Shown here: positions 11,224 through 18,298 of the stretch, in pieces
Layout of the letters: every line of letters starts with the position of its first letter
How positions within the stretch are numbered: position 1 is the stretch's first letter
DNA from: Mesotoga prima MesG1.Ag.4.2
GTDB taxonomy: Bacteria; Thermotogota; Thermotogae; Petrotogales; Kosmotogaceae
DNA: 64,000 bases
Direction: 5' to 3'
Assembly: GCF_000147715.2 (NCBI RefSeq)
Contig: NC_017934.1
Coordinates: 806,001 to 870,000 of the forward strand
The notes under the pieces: model-generated
Database searches by the model: none
Told to the model about the DNA's origin: nothing
What the model saw: the letters and a program-made list of their open reading frames with translations, nothing else
Translations under genes and position numbers: made by a program

Positions 11224-12165
11224 ATGCCAGCACAAATTGCATCGGTTGATGTTGTAAGAATACTTGGTAAGCTGAGTGACGATGGAGGGGAGCAATCAAG
11301 TAGAAATAGATTCATACGCGAGTATCTTTCAAAGTACGCTTCTCCCGAATCCATCATCAGTGACATCGAGGGCCTACTTGAGGCCTATCCTACATTTGAT
11401 GGCGATTCTGAGAGTCTCGGAAGAGCTTACGCCGATCTTGTTAATAGACTTGCCGAGCTATCGGGTTTCTCCGTTGACTATGTGAAGTACTCCGGAAGAG
11501 AGAAGATAACGGGAATCTGGAAGGTGGGTGAGGCTATTCAGATCAAAGTCGCGGCGATTGTTTGTACTGATTTCGAAGAGGCCAAGGGAGTTGCGAGGAA
11601 CGCTCTCCTAATTCTTCCCGAAGCGATTGATCTCGGGAGACCGTTTGTTACAGTTGGACGTCTAGGTATGTTGTTTTCAATGATCGAGCAAATCGAGCTT
11701 CCGGTTAGTTCAGTAGCGTCGATACTTGTTACAGATGATAACTACGACAAAAGAATATCATCATTTATGGAGTTAATGCTATTAGCTTTCAAAAAGGAGC
11801 TGGCAAGAAAACCCCAGATATCGCTTCAAAAAGAGTGGTCTAAAGAAGAACTTGAAGAATTCATTATGGAAAGACTTAAGCTGCCCACCATAGGGATGCT
11901 GTTTTCCTTACTCGATTCGCCCATGTTGAGTGAAGACTTGGTAGATAGAATAAACAGTTTCCTGGAGGAAAACGAGAGCGAACTGGTGAAAGGGCCTATG
12001 GCACTAGGTGCAATAATGGGTGCTCTTTCGAAACACTACTCCGGGATCAAAGAAGAGCTTGTATTGCGCGAGGGAAAGAGATATCGACTGGCCGACAAAT
12101 ACAGACCTTTAATATCCGAAATTAAAGCACGCTTTGAAAGCGGTGTTCAGGCACGCACGCGTTAA
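11224..12165 (+). CDS. Hypothetical protein, 313 aa
   Basis: I do not recognise this protein. It is soluble, mostly helical by composition, with no signal peptide or membrane segment. The ATG at 11224 has a good TAGAGGTGATTTA site. Residues 1-60 are helical; 75-190 look like an alpha/beta domain rich in hydrophobic strands (IKVAAIVCTDF, SSVASILVTDD); 195-313 are helical again with charged segments. Codon use resembles the neighbours. It stands alone between an AT-rich spacer and the xer promoter/dif-like site, so context gives no functional clue. Confidence 0.8.
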   Translation: MPAQIASVDVVRILGKLSDDGGEQSSRNRFIREYLSKYASPESIISDIEGLLEAYPTFDGDSESLGRAYADLVNRLAELSGFSVDYVKYSGREKITGIWKVGEAIQIKVAAIVCTDFEEAKGVARNALLILPEAIDLGRPFVTVGRLGMLFSMIEQIELPVSSVASILVTDDNYDKRISSFMELMLLAFKKELARKPQISLQKEWSKEELEEFIMERLKLPTIGMLFSLLDSPMLSEDLVDRINSFLEENESELVKGPMALGAIMGALSKHYSGIKEELVLREGKRYRLADKYRPLISEIKARFESGVQARTR

Positions 12166-12312
12166 ACGGCTCATATTGCTTGTTTCTTCTGGCAAGAATA
12201 TAAATAGATACGAAAGTGAAGAAAAATTCAACACAGGGCATTTTAAGAGGTATCGCGCTGTAACCCCTATTGAATGGAGCTTACACGCGTAGCATTGAAG
12301 AAAGCCATGTGC

Positions 12313-12318
12313 TATAAT
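12313..12318 (+). promoter_or_regulatory. -10 box of the xer gene
   Basis: A perfect TATAAT sits 61 bases before the xer start codon and only 4 bases before the large palindrome. No good -35 is present at 16-18 bases, so the promoter is either weak or activator-dependent. Transcription would begin at about the left edge of the palindrome, which places the dif-like site in the 5' untranslated region. Confidence 0.5.
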
Positions 12319-12321
12319 ACG

Positions 12322-12357
12322 AAATATGAGTCATAATGACTATTATGACTCATATTT
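12322..12357. repeat. Perfect palindrome, candidate dif (Xer recombination) site
   Basis: A perfect 16-base inverted repeat with only 4 bases between the arms (12322-12337 and 12342-12357). Read as a Xer site, it has 11-base arms ATGAGTCATAA (12326-12336) and its exact reverse complement (12343-12353) around the 6-base centre TGACTA. The inner CATAA-N6-TTATG core is the same as that of E. coli dif. It lies 21 bases before the start codon of a tyrosine recombinase with a complete active site. In known single-recombinase systems (XerS/difSL, XerH/difH) the site is often next to the gene. An alternative is an autoregulatory operator or a hairpin in the mRNA leader; both could hold at once. Confidence 0.7.
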
Positions 12358-12378
12358 ATGATAATCTGGGGGTTGAAA

Positions 12379-13278
12379 ATGGACTTTTCCGAAGCAGTTG
12401 AGAGATTCAAAGAGAACATGGAATTTGTGAGAAATATGTCTTCCAACACAGTTGCCGCTTATCTTTCCGATCTCCATCATTTCGAGCTCTTTCTTAATGA
12501 GCGTGGAATTGACTACAAGTCGGTGAAGAGAAAAGACATCGAGCTGTTCGTTAAAGAGTATTCTCAGGGGAAGTATTCGAGGAAGAGACCTTCTGCAACT
12601 ACCGTGGCCAGAAATCTTTCGACGATCCGGTCATTCTACACGTTTCTCTACATAAGTGGAACGGTAAGTAAGGTTCCGACCGAGCTGATCAAGAATCCGA
12701 AGACACGGCGTAGAATCCCTGATTACATAACGCATGATGAGGTCATGGAGATCCTTTCTTCCTTCAGAAGTACCAACCTGGGCAAAAGAAACAAGGCTAT
12801 AGTTGCAATAATGTACTTCTGTGGATTGAGGGTAAGCGAAGTGTGCAAATTGAGGCTCGGGGATCTCAGAATGGGCAATTCGCCGGCGGTGAGGATCATG
12901 AGCGGAAAGGGGAACAGAGATAGAGAAGTACCGATGAACGACCAGGTTCTCTCCATTGTGAAGGAGTATCTCCAAATAAGAAGAGAGTTTCCCATGAGTG
13001 AGTATGAAGACCACGTCTTTATAGGGACACGGGGAGAGCCAATGGCAAGAAACGTAATTCCAAAAGTACTAAATACACAAGTAAAATATGTATATCCTGA
13101 AAAACGAGTACATCCACATTTATTTCGACATAGTTTTGCTACACAACTTCTACAAAAAGGTGCAAGTATAAAGATTGTACAAGAATTGCTGGGACATGCA
13201 AATCTTAGCACTACTAGTATATATTTGCATATTACAGATAAAGAGAAGAGAGCAGCTGTACAATTGCTATCGGACTGA
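12379..13278 (+). CDS. xerD: Tyrosine recombinase, XerC/XerD/XerA type
   Basis: Site-specific recombinase of the Xer class, which resolves chromosome dimers at dif. It has 299 residues, the normal size, with an N-terminal SAM-like DNA-binding domain (about 5-100) and a catalytic domain holding all six active-site residues: R151, K177, H247, R250, H273 and the nucleophile Y282. I chose ATG 12379 because GGGGGTTG precedes it; the frame is open 21 bases further into the palindrome. From about 13060 to the end the gene is much richer in A+T than before (31% versus 50% G+C in 160-base blocks), with different codon choice (CGA, CAT, TTT, ATA). The symbol is approximate: XerC, XerD and XerA types cannot be told apart here. 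Confidence 0.93.
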   Translation: MDFSEAVERFKENMEFVRNMSSNTVAAYLSDLHHFELFLNERGIDYKSVKRKDIELFVKEYSQGKYSRKRPSATTVARNLSTIRSFYTFLYISGTVSKVPTELIKNPKTRRRIPDYITHDEVMEILSSFRSTNLGKRNKAIVAIMYFCGLRVSEVCKLRLGDLRMGNSPAVRIMSGKGNRDREVPMNDQVLSIVKEYLQIRREFPMSEYEDHVFIGTRGEPMARNVIPKVLNTQVKYVYPEKRVHPHLFRHSFATQLLQKGASIKIVQELLGHANLSTTSIYLHITDKEKRAAVQLLSD

Positions 13279-13307
13279 TTTGCGAGTGAATATTGTGGAG
13301 TTGTTGT

Positions 13308-14060
13308 ATGATAGATATTCACAATCACACTACGTATTCCGATGGCAGGAATACCGTGGAAGAGGTAATACAATCGGCATTGAAGGAAGGTCTTCAGATA
13401 GTCGGAATCTCCGATCACTTTGATCCATATGTAGCCCAAGAGGTCTGCCTTCAGCCCGAAGAAGTAAGCGTGTATCTAAAAGAGATAAGAACTTTAAGCG
13501 AAAAGTATCCAATAAAGGTTCTTGCCGGGCTTGAGCTTGGCCTGCAATCGGAAGGAATTCTCTGGCCCGGTGAAGAAATGGACTATTTCATCTACTCTGT
13601 TCACACCGTTCCAGGGAGACCCGATCTCAAGACCCTTGAAAACCCTTGGGATATATACCTTCAAGAGGCTATCAGTGCGGTAGATCTCATTGACAGACCT
13701 GGCTTTTTTGGTCACCTTGATTTTCTGCGAAGGCATATCCCGAAAGCAAAGCCTCCCAAACCTGGGCAGCTTATGGATACGCTTCTGATGAAGCTTGTAT
13801 CGAATCACGTTGGACTCGAGTTGAACACCTCTGGCTGGATGTACGGAATTGGGGACCCTTCTCCCCAGCCATGGGTAATAGAGAGATATATAGACCTGGG
13901 GGGCCGCTTTGTTACGGTAGGTTCAGACTCGCACAGGGCCTCACAGATCGGAAATTTCACTGTGAAAGCGCTTTCTTTGCTTAGGCAAATGGGGATTAAA
14001 GAAGTGTTTTATTGTGAGAATGGTAGTTATATTCCCGTTCCGATAATGGAGGCAAAATGA
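13308..14060 (+). CDS. PHP-domain phosphoesterase (paralogue 1)
   Basis: A 250-residue metal-dependent phosphoesterase of the PHP superfamily, whose members include histidinol phosphatase and DNA polymerase proofreading domains. The metal-binding motifs are visible: DIHNHTTYSDG at the N terminus, GISDHFDP, GLELGL, HLDFLRR in the middle and GSDSHR near the C terminus. ATG 13308 has GTGGAG upstream. The substrate is unknown; histidinol phosphate is possible but there are no his genes nearby. It overlaps the DUF2461 gene by 4 bases. A clear paralogue of the same length lies at 17546-18298, with shared segments such as IDRPGFFGH, NTSGW and KEVFYCE. Confidence 0.88.
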   Translation: MIDIHNHTTYSDGRNTVEEVIQSALKEGLQIVGISDHFDPYVAQEVCLQPEEVSVYLKEIRTLSEKYPIKVLAGLELGLQSEGILWPGEEMDYFIYSVHTVPGRPDLKTLENPWDIYLQEAISAVDLIDRPGFFGHLDFLRRHIPKAKPPKPGQLMDTLLMKLVSNHVGLELNTSGWMYGIGDPSPQPWVIERYIDLGGRFVTVGSDSHRASQIGNFTVKALSLLRQMGIKEVFYCENGSYIPVPIMEAK

Positions 14061-16034: not shown

Positions 16035-17552
16035 ATGACGGCAAGCACTGTGAGAAGCACCGCTATCTTTGCCATAGCAACTATGTTATCCAGATTAACG
16101 GGTCTCGCGAGAGACTCCCTCTTTGCAAACTACTTTGGTACTTCTGCTCAATATGATGCATATCTTGTGGCAATAATGATCCCCTTCTTCCTTAGAAAGA
16201 TATTCGCAGACGGCGCCTTGACCATGGCATTTGTTCCGGTTTTCAACGAAAAGCTCAAGATTTCAAGAGAAAGGGCCTTTGTCTTTGCTTCTACTGTCAT
16301 TGTCTTTGTAGTGATTGTTGCTGGATCGATTTCCGCCGGAGGGATGGTTTTTTCAGAGGGGGTAGCCTCAGTATTTGCCGGGGGTTTCGATAAGGATGCA
16401 TTGGACCTGACATCGAGATTAATTCGAATCTCCTTTCCATTCATAGCGCTTGTTTCTCTATGGGCAGTTTACTGCGGAGTTCTCAACAGTCTCGATGCTT
16501 TCTTCATTGCGGCGGTTTCTCCAATGTTCATAAATCTCTCAACTATCGCAGGGATTCTGCTTTCAGAAAGGTTTTCGCCACCAATTGTCGGACCGACTAT
16601 AGGTTTCCTGGCTGGCGGGGTAATCCAATTGGTTGTTGTAGCTCTGGCGGCCAAATCGAAGGGCTTTGTCTTCAAACCGGGATACAGCAAAAGTGATGTA
16701 AGGGAGTTCCTTATTCTTTTCCTTTTTTCGGCCGTATCTCCGGCTATAAACGAAATCAATTCCTTTGTAGATGTAAGAGTATCCACTGAACTGGGTCGAG
16801 GCGCAGTCTCTAGCCTGGGGTATGCTCAGAGGCTTTATCAACTTCCACTGGGCGTCTTCGCCGTTGCTGTCGCCACTGTAGCACTTCCAAGATTATCGAA
16901 ACTCTCCGGTTCCGATGCGCGAGACCGTTTCAGGAAGGCTCTGTGGGACTCATTGACTGTGCTCGCCTTTCTTATCATACCTTCGACTCTGGGTCTTCTG
17001 GTCCTGGGTGAAGGAATAGTTCGGATTCTCTTTGAGAGGGGTTCTTTTACACCATCCGATACTGCGTTTACCACGTCTCTTCTTTACGGATATACTCTGG
17101 GATTGCCTTTCTATGGATCGTATGGGGTTTTATCAAGGGCTTACTATGCGAGAAAGAGTCCCAGAACTCCGACTATCATCTCCGCAATCATGGTAAGCGT
17201 CAATGTAGCACTAGATATTCTGCTTGGTTTTACAATTGGGCCGCTTGGCGTTGCATTGGCAACAAGTGTGGCCGGAATCGTTGGCACAGTTACCGTTTCG
17301 GTTGCACTGTTTAGGTGGAGCGGATACGACAGAGAAAAGATTATTGCCATTTTGAAGATAATACTTGCTTCGCTTGTCATGTCATGCGTCATGATTGTTG
17401 GGAGGACTTTATTTGGAACCGGATTCATTTCGACTTCGTTGACTCTTGTTGCAGGAATAATAGTGTATTTTCTTTCGGCAAGGATACTTCGTGTTGGGAA
17501 TCTCTTCAAATTGAGAGATCTCTTGCGGAACAAAAAAAGCAGTTCTCAATAA
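16035..17552 (+). CDS. murJ: Lipid II flippase MurJ
   Basis: Polytopic inner membrane protein of the MOP exporter superfamily that flips lipid II for peptidoglycan synthesis. At 505 residues with about 14 hydrophobic segments it fits MurJ. Family features include the N-terminal TMLSRLTGLARDSLFANYFG, the GALTMAFVPVF segment, and the central LPLGVFAVAVATVALPRLS stretch; the RLTGLARD and YYARKSPRTP loops carry the conserved basic residues. ATG 16035 has TGGAGGT upstream, and a TATAAT box is at 16012-16017. Its last 7 bases overlap the convergent PHP gene. Confidence 0.95.
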   Translation: MTASTVRSTAIFAIATMLSRLTGLARDSLFANYFGTSAQYDAYLVAIMIPFFLRKIFADGALTMAFVPVFNEKLKISRERAFVFASTVIVFVVIVAGSISAGGMVFSEGVASVFAGGFDKDALDLTSRLIRISFPFIALVSLWAVYCGVLNSLDAFFIAAVSPMFINLSTIAGILLSERFSPPIVGPTIGFLAGGVIQLVVVALAAKSKGFVFKPGYSKSDVREFLILFLFSAVSPAINEINSFVDVRVSTELGRGAVSSLGYAQRLYQLPLGVFAVAVATVALPRLSKLSGSDARDRFRKALWDSLTVLAFLIIPSTLGLLVLGEGIVRILFERGSFTPSDTAFTTSLLYGYTLGLPFYGSYGVLSRAYYARKSPRTPTIISAIMVSVNVALDILLGFTIGPLGVALATSVAGIVGTVTVSVALFRWSGYDREKIIAILKIILASLVMSCVMIVGRTLFGTGFISTSLTLVAGIIVYFLSARILRVGNLFKLRDLLRNKKSSSQ

Positions 17553-18298
17553 ATAGTCAACGCAACGGGTTTGTATTCCATCTTTTCACAGTAAAAGACC
17601 TCCTTGAATCCAATGCTTTTCAGCAGAAGTAATGCGTCGGAAACGTGACTACCTACGTCCTCCCTTCTATGAGAATCTGAACCTATTGTCACAAACTTCC
17701 CTCCACAGAGAAAGTACTTCTCCACAATCCAGCGTTGCGGTGAAGGTTCTTTGTAAGGATAACGCCAACCCGATGTGTTTATCTCAATTCCGATACCGGC
17801 TCTTATGAGCTTCCTCAGTAATTCGCAAAGAAGTTCCTCGTTGTCAAGAGCTTTATGACCGGGAAGATATCTTCTGAGAAAATCGATGTGACCGAAAAAA
17901 CCCGGTCTGTCGATACCGGAAATCGCCTCGATTGCCTCTTCCAGATAAAGCGTCCAAACGTCCCCGGAAGTCAGGTCTTTAATTCCGGGAATTCCGTGAA
18001 CCGAGTAAATGAAGTAATCAAAGTCACCTTCAGGTAAGGTCTTTGCGCATGACTGAAGCCCGACTTCTAGACCCGCCAGAACCTTGATAACTGAATTCTC
18101 TTTCATGCGAGAAAGGCTCCTCAAATAGATTTCAGGATCTTTCATCCTGTAGCTATCAGGGAAGGAATCGTCAAGATCATCATGGTCGGAGATTCCTATA
18201 ACTTTCAGTCCTTTAAGAATTGCTTCCTCAACGATTTCCTCCACAGGTGTCTGACTGTCAGGGGAAAAGGAGCTGTGGTTATGCAGATCTACAGACAC
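17546..18298 (-). CDS. PHP-domain phosphoesterase (paralogue 2)
   Basis: A 250-residue PHP-superfamily phosphoesterase and a paralogue of the 13308-14060 gene. Motifs in order: SVDLHNHSSFSPD, GISDHDD, GLEVGLQS, GHIDFLRR, and GSDSHRR. The two copies share long identical or near-identical segments (YFIYSVHG/T, IDRPGFFGH, NTSGW, KEVFYCE). Here the second-motif region carries an extra acidic loop (DDLDDSFPD). The start lies 3 bases after the stop of the upstream minus-strand gene, so they form an operon. Substrate unknown. Confidence 0.88.
   Translation of the reverse strand: MSVDLHNHSSFSPDSQTPVEEIVEEAILKGLKVIGISDHDDLDDSFPDSYRMKDPEIYLRSLSRMKENSVIKVLAGLEVGLQSCAKTLPEGDFDYFIYSVHGIPGIKDLTSGDVWTLYLEEAIEAISGIDRPGFFGHIDFLRRYLPGHKALDNEELLCELLRKLIRAGIGIEINTSGWRYPYKEPSPQRWIVEKYFLCGGKFVTIGSDSHRREDVGSHVSDALLLLKSIGFKEVFYCEKMEYKPVALTIY

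Follow-up and report, generated by a model that had tools for sequence, protein, structure and literature searches.

The leader of the xer gene in Mesotoga prima MesG1.Ag.4.2 contains a perfect palindrome, which raises the question whether this is the dif site of the recombinase encoded just downstream or an element with another role at the promoter. We addressed this question in the window, i.e., the whole 64,000-nucleotide stretch of DNA analyzed here, as well as in the complete genome and in related Thermotogota. The palindrome very probably represents the dif site of one Xer protein that acts on both arms, takes its direction from the bases GACT in the centre and works independently of FtsK, with autorepression of xer as a likely by-product.

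The palindrome covers positions 12322-12357 (AAATATGAGTCATAATGACTATTATGACTCATATTT) and consists of two 16-nt arms, 100% complementary to each other, that are separated by a 4-nt centre. Read as a 28-bp site of the dif type, positions 12326-12353 give ATGAGTCATAA-TGACTA-TTATGACTCAT (11+6+11); neither feature is assigned a strand, and the symmetry extends 4 nt beyond the 11-6-11 site on both sides. This corresponds to the architecture of a dif site, i.e., about 28 bp with two 11-bp dyad arms, a 6-bp centre and ATAA/TTAT at the inner arms. The sequence-only reading, made from the letters of the DNA, had described 11-base arms around TGACTA, and these are indeed present and perfectly paired. The left arm (12326-12336, forward strand) is a presumed Xer half-site that recurs in the mobile-element site described below, and the right arm occupies 12343-12353 on the reverse strand. 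Between them, TGACTA (12337-12342, forward strand) is the presumed crossover region, as suggested by its sequence and the junctions of the same element; its asymmetry is confined to the inner GACT. The arms contain only 19% G+C.

An extended -10 element of the xer promoter, TGC-TATAAT, is located at 12310-12318 on the forward strand (TATAAT at 12313-12318). It is kept in the Mesotoga xer leaders and was also found in other genomes with the site. As had been stated before, the palindrome starts 4 nt downstream of this element and ends 21 nt upstream of the xer ATG at 12379. Judged from the position of the -10 element, transcription of xer would start within the left arm or immediately upstream of it. 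A second in-frame ATG directly follows the palindrome at 12358; we took 12379 as the start codon because the GGGGG ribosome-binding stretch fits this position (CTGGGGG, 12366-12372, forward strand, conserved in Mesotoga).

The xer gene (12379-13278, forward strand) encodes a 299-aa tyrosine recombinase of the XerC/XerD/XerA superfamily, as determined by Pfam, NCBIfam and alignment. With a SAM-like N domain followed by a Phage_integrase domain (PF00589), the protein (P0001) has the composition of a Xer recombinase of about 300 aa, and the claim of a full R-K-H-R-H-Y active site was confirmed by the presence of all six residues (R151, K177, H247, R250, H273 and Y282). It can be aligned over its full length with E. 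coli XerD (1a0p), and xer is the sole PF00589 gene of the genome, which is thus a single-Xer genome. The NCBIfam models for XerD and XerC score about equally and higher than the one for archaeal XerA; all scores stay below the curated cut-offs, so that the protein is not assignable to XerC, XerD or XerA. Its score against the XerS model is 113.6 bits vs a cut-off of 267, and with 299 aa and a classical 6-bp centre, enzyme and site do not match the XerS/XerH type, which combines an enzyme of about 355 aa with a difSL/difH-type site. As a separate observation, the last quarter of xer (13072-13270) has a G+C content of 30-34% vs 40-53% in the remainder. A comparable drop near the end of the gene is common to 8/8 Mesotoga orthologues compared, indicating that it is old and does not reflect a recent chimera.

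To be dif, the site should occur once per chromosome, and a search of the complete genome (2,974,229 + 1,724 bp) had been proposed as a check. At up to 3 mismatches, the search returned one copy in the 2.98-Mb genome, with the 1.7-kb plasmid contig left out as it reads as N. No palindrome match occurred in 100 shuffles of the window, which together with the one genomic copy excludes chance. Among 823 kb of sampled DNA from the same genome, the palindrome is the longest perfect one and by far the most AT-rich, the other long palindromes mostly resembling GC-richer terminators. It also contains the only 11-6-11 site in these 823 kb with at least 10/11 arm pairs and an ATAA/TTAT core, and the sole such site in 780 kb scanned from K. 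olearia is the one upstream of xer; a second strong dif-like site was found in neither sample. Across Mesotoga, the site is single-copy in 8/9 genomes that hold it. Only the sister Mesotoga G007 has more, and its extra copies are part of an integrated element.

The site is conserved in related species. A palindrome between an extended -10 element and xer was found in every member of the Kosmotogaceae whose xer leader could be read, including 9/10 Mesotoga genomes, and in addition in family f8, a different family of the same class. Its form is GAGTCATAA-N6 in Mesotoga, GGAGACATAA-N6 in the Kosmotoga-type genera and genus g2, TGGACGTATAA-GAAAAC-TTATACGTCCA in genome G013 and ATGCATGATAA-N6 or a close variant in family f8. 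The strict symmetry noted in the sequence-only reading proved overstated, since the slightly asymmetric site of G007 and G002 pairs 9/11 arm positions and the Kosmotoga site 10/11. When the leaders of seven Mesotoga were aligned, the -10 element and the palindrome including its centre stood out as a nearly unbroken conserved block within otherwise diverged intergenic DNA. Conservation upstream of orthologous xer genes, one of the proposed checks, was therefore found in Kosmotogaceae and family f8, and it comes with co-varying arms. Among 14 distinct sites from these two families, ATAA-N6-TTA is invariant and the outer arms vary on both sides. Arm pairing holds in 89.3% of cells, compared with 25-47% in slid controls; changes on both sides were counted in 32 cells (10.9 expected from shuffles), and the covariation score is 0.459 vs 0.136 in shuffles.

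The Kosmotoga site includes CATAATGTATATTA, i.e., the exact 14-base core and centre of E. coli dif, for which the E. coli sequence was checked. Overall identity of the sites to E. coli dif ranges from 13 to 18 of 28 positions, which by itself is not significant, and for this reason we used only the exact core match of Kosmotoga. What counts against dif is that most other Thermotogota families carry related Xer genes with a leader devoid of the palindrome: it is missing from the xer leaders of families f3, f4, f6, f9 and f10, and no comparable palindrome is present in those of the Petrotogaceae-like family f2. Kosmotogaceae and family f8 form separate supported groups in the Xer tree, and the leader-site arrangement may have arisen once, an origin that is compatible with this tree.

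Independent information on the function of the site comes from G007, in which the family-wide search gave three matches in one complete genome. One match lies upstream of xer, and the remaining two, with a spacing of 3,126 bp, delimit copies of a plasmid-like element, which is integrated as a tandem dimer (L207 4444-10708; G007:C1:847443-853708). The element encodes an AAA_25 RepA-like helicase with a winged helix and an HTH_17 protein, and it contains iteron-like 9-bp repeats; no recombinase gene was found in its 3,126 bp. The left junction reads GGTAGTTCTAT-TTGTTA-TTATGAATCAT, the internal junction ATGAGTCATAA-TTGTTA-TTATGAATCAT and the right junction ATGAGTCATAA-TTGTTA-TTATGAAAGCT, so that all three junctions, the two with the chromosome and the internal one, map to one dif-like site, the left arm of which is identical to the left arm in the window. 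Element and target, the latter with a poor left arm, overlap by only 13 bp (TTGTTATTATGAA), corresponding to the centre and the right half-arm. G002 shows the empty, uninterrupted target with an identical 13-mer and a surrounding identity of 94-95%, and the gene at the target is likewise uninterrupted in the window's own genome and in G009. Rejoining of the flanks is predicted to restore the open frame of a DUF4040/MnhB-type antiporter subunit.

A random junction on a 3.1-kb circle would land in a 28-bp site in about 0.9% of cases (28/3126), and integration driven by microhomology would thus have, by position alone, a chance of about 0.9% to hit these very 28 bp. For an element that brings no recombinase of its own, exchange exactly inside a dif-like site is what a host Xer would produce. 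Although this represents one event in one assembly, the position of the junctions indicates that this class of sequence behaves as a recombination site and not only as a hairpin or operator. Only distant relatives of the RepA-like helicase were found in the plasmid collection and no copy in other Mesotoga, and in the viral contigs scanned, the sites had only scattered matches that looked unrelated. Taken together, the proposal of a dif-type site in a genome with one recombinase gained support from the single copy, the one PF00589 gene, the conservation and the integration at a related site in G007.

The same check had also asked for a location at the GC-skew switch, for which no usable skew was obtained in Mesotoga. 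Skew was determined at four-fold sites, corrected for gene strand, from stretches of up to 20 kb. dnaA lies at coordinate 0 in 4/4 complete genomes, in which the site is positioned at 0.275, 0.09, 0.92 and 0.90 of the chromosome. The fit of a skew step reached significance in K. olearia (G012; score 1.79 vs a permuted maximum of 1.16), was marginal in G011 and remained below significance in the two Mesotoga (G000 and G007). In K. olearia, the skew maximum extends from about 0.95 to 0.10. The distance of the site from this maximum is roughly 5-17% of the chromosome length, which places the site near the apparent terminus but not at it. In this genome dnaA, at coordinate 0, lies near the skew maximum, where the terminus is expected, and the skew minimum lies at about 0.41-0.5. 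Owing to extensive rearrangement of the chromosomes, a consistent origin-terminus axis emerged neither from the orientation of rRNA genes nor from the gene order shared across the complete genomes.

The translocase that would control a Xer system of the FtsK type was not found either: FtsK_SpoIIIE (PF01580) was not detected in the four complete Kosmotogaceae (G000, G007, G011 and G012). Across 91 Thermotogota genomes, 18 gave short matches to this family, two of which are above the cut-off and none of which spans it. A complete FtsK/SpoIIIE translocase domain thus appears to be absent from the phylum.

The location at the promoter also allows a regulatory explanation, in which Xer or another dimeric regulator uses the palindrome solely as an operator of xer transcription and dif lies elsewhere. 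Consistent with this, the site occupies a fixed place just past the extended -10 element, over the presumed transcription start, in every genome that holds it, perfect dyad symmetry suits a homodimer, and the skew analysis placed it off the maximum in K. olearia and was not significant in Mesotoga. However, the core obeys the dif rule ATAA-6-TTAT, and in Kosmotoga it matches the E. coli core and centre exactly. Since, in addition, the site on the G007 element is away from xer, precedes rather than follows a -10-like box and coincides with an integration junction, and since no second strong dif-like site appeared in the 823 kb of the same genome or the 780 kb of K. olearia scanned, we consider a pure operator unlikely. 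At the level of the message, folding of the xer leader gives a hairpin of 16 bp (-18.9 kcal/mol, z = -4.5). Placed at the 5' terminus of the xer mRNA, such a stem-loop could stabilize the transcript or control its translation. The co-variation of the arms, in which some changes retain a G-U pair, would fit such a structure, but any DNA palindrome yields a fold of this kind, several sites contain A-C, A-G or T-T mismatches, and the hexamer is conserved within Mesotoga. A hairpin also leaves the junction of the mobile element unexplained, which renders this explanation very unlikely.

Finally, palindromes are common as terminators, and the inverted repeat might be a chance or transient structure, e.g., a terminator or the solo end of a mobile element. 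A terminator was rejected on the grounds of the AT-rich arms and the lack of a match in the terminator scan, and any transient origin is hard to reconcile with conservation in Kosmotogaceae and family f8 and with a sequence that is unrepeated in the genome, so that we regard it as extremely improbable.

For the preferred assignment as dif, we infer binding of Xer to the site, the positions of cleavage, dimer resolution in vivo and autoregulation as follows. Each arm would be occupied by one protomer of the same Xer protein. The pair would cleave where the arms meet the 6-bp centre TGACTA and swap strands with another copy of the site, and a chromosome dimer would in this way be converted into two monomers. 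The inner GACT would give the otherwise symmetric site its direction. As the genome has neither a second Xer nor a detectable FtsK, the reaction must be activated independently of FtsK, which is also the case for archaeal XerA/dif. The site sits between the -10 element and the start codon, so that Xer occupying dif would in addition obstruct the promoter of its own gene, and because the site covers the presumed transcription start, autorepression is likely. More tentatively, Kosmotogaceae in general could resolve chromosome dimers with one Xer and one near-symmetric dif in the xer promoter, needing neither FtsK nor a fixed position at the terminus, an arrangement that would at the same time set the dose of the enzyme and be exploited by small plasmids.

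Several features of this pair are already known separately, namely linkage of gene and site (PMC5357621, PMC2731167), a single Xer without FtsK (PMC2958812) and symmetric arms (PMC9765430). Perfectly symmetric dif arms were published for the XerL system of Legionella (PMC9765430), and the symmetry is therefore less unusual than the sequence-only reading had assumed. XerL/dif of the Legionellales resembles the Mesotoga pair in its single recombinase and uninterrupted symmetric arms, and the discovery of Legionella dif likewise came from a mobile element, which bears a mimic of the site and relies on the recombinase of its host. In contrast, dif and xerL of L. pneumophila are more than 400 kb apart with dif near the terminus, the Legionella arms lack the known Xer motifs, whereas an ATAA-N6-TTAT core is present here, and Legionella has an FtsK homologue (PMC9765430), of which none was found here. 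Archaeal XerA/dif shares one Xer, the lack of FtsK and a 28-bp site with few or no arm mismatches, and in some Euryarchaeota dif lies near xerA; the sections of PMC2958812 drawn on here place the sites in the terminus region and do not describe them as part of the xerA leader. The Mesotoga Xer, moreover, scores higher on the bacterial XerD/XerC models than on the XerA model.

XerS/difSL of streptococci and lactococci also combines a single recombinase with a site beside its gene (PMC5357621). XerS, however, has 356 aa and acts together with FtsK on a 31-bp difSL with an 11-bp centre and unequal arms, compared with 299 aa, 28 bp, a 6-bp centre and no FtsK found in Mesotoga. The same holds for XerH/difH of epsilon-proteobacteria, a single recombinase with a usually gene-linked site (PMC5357621, PMC2731167), in which XerH has 354-362 aa and the site is like difSL, in contrast to the classical dif core and short Xer described here. 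E. coli XerCD/dif shares the 11-6-11 architecture and the ATAA/TTAT core, with an identical centre in Kosmotoga (TGTATA), but employs two recombinases, unequal arms and FtsK control at a terminus site that is not beside xer. The G007 element resembles Xer-exploiting mobile elements (IMEX) and pdif plasmids in that it has a dif-like site, within which it is linked to the chromosome, and encodes no recombinase; it differs in its target, a pseudo-site in a coding gene (the predicted DUF4040-type antiporter subunit) instead of the chromosomal dif. No published dif site for Thermotogota was found in the literature searched, and the phylum is absent from the table of a 2011 dif-site survey. Nor did we find a description of the combination of a short XerC/D-like enzyme, a classical dif core, near-symmetric arms, a site in the xer leader and no detectable FtsK.

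If the assignment is correct, Thermotogota gain a dif/Xer pair, and a natural case of Xer recombination by a single protein on a near-symmetric site becomes available. Two questions could then be addressed, namely how the timing and the place of dimer resolution are set in a bacterium with no detectable FtsK, and whether dif has to sit at the terminus at all when the chromosome is strongly rearranged and nearly free of skew. For genetic work in these bacteria, the site might also be used as a point of integration.

Concerning the neighborhood of xer, the 313-aa protein encoded just upstream (11224-12165) has no Pfam match. Further downstream, two related PHP-domain-like proteins are encoded at 13293-14060 and 17546-18298, 3.5 kb apart and in opposite orientation; for the first, a PHP match was obtained with Pfam.
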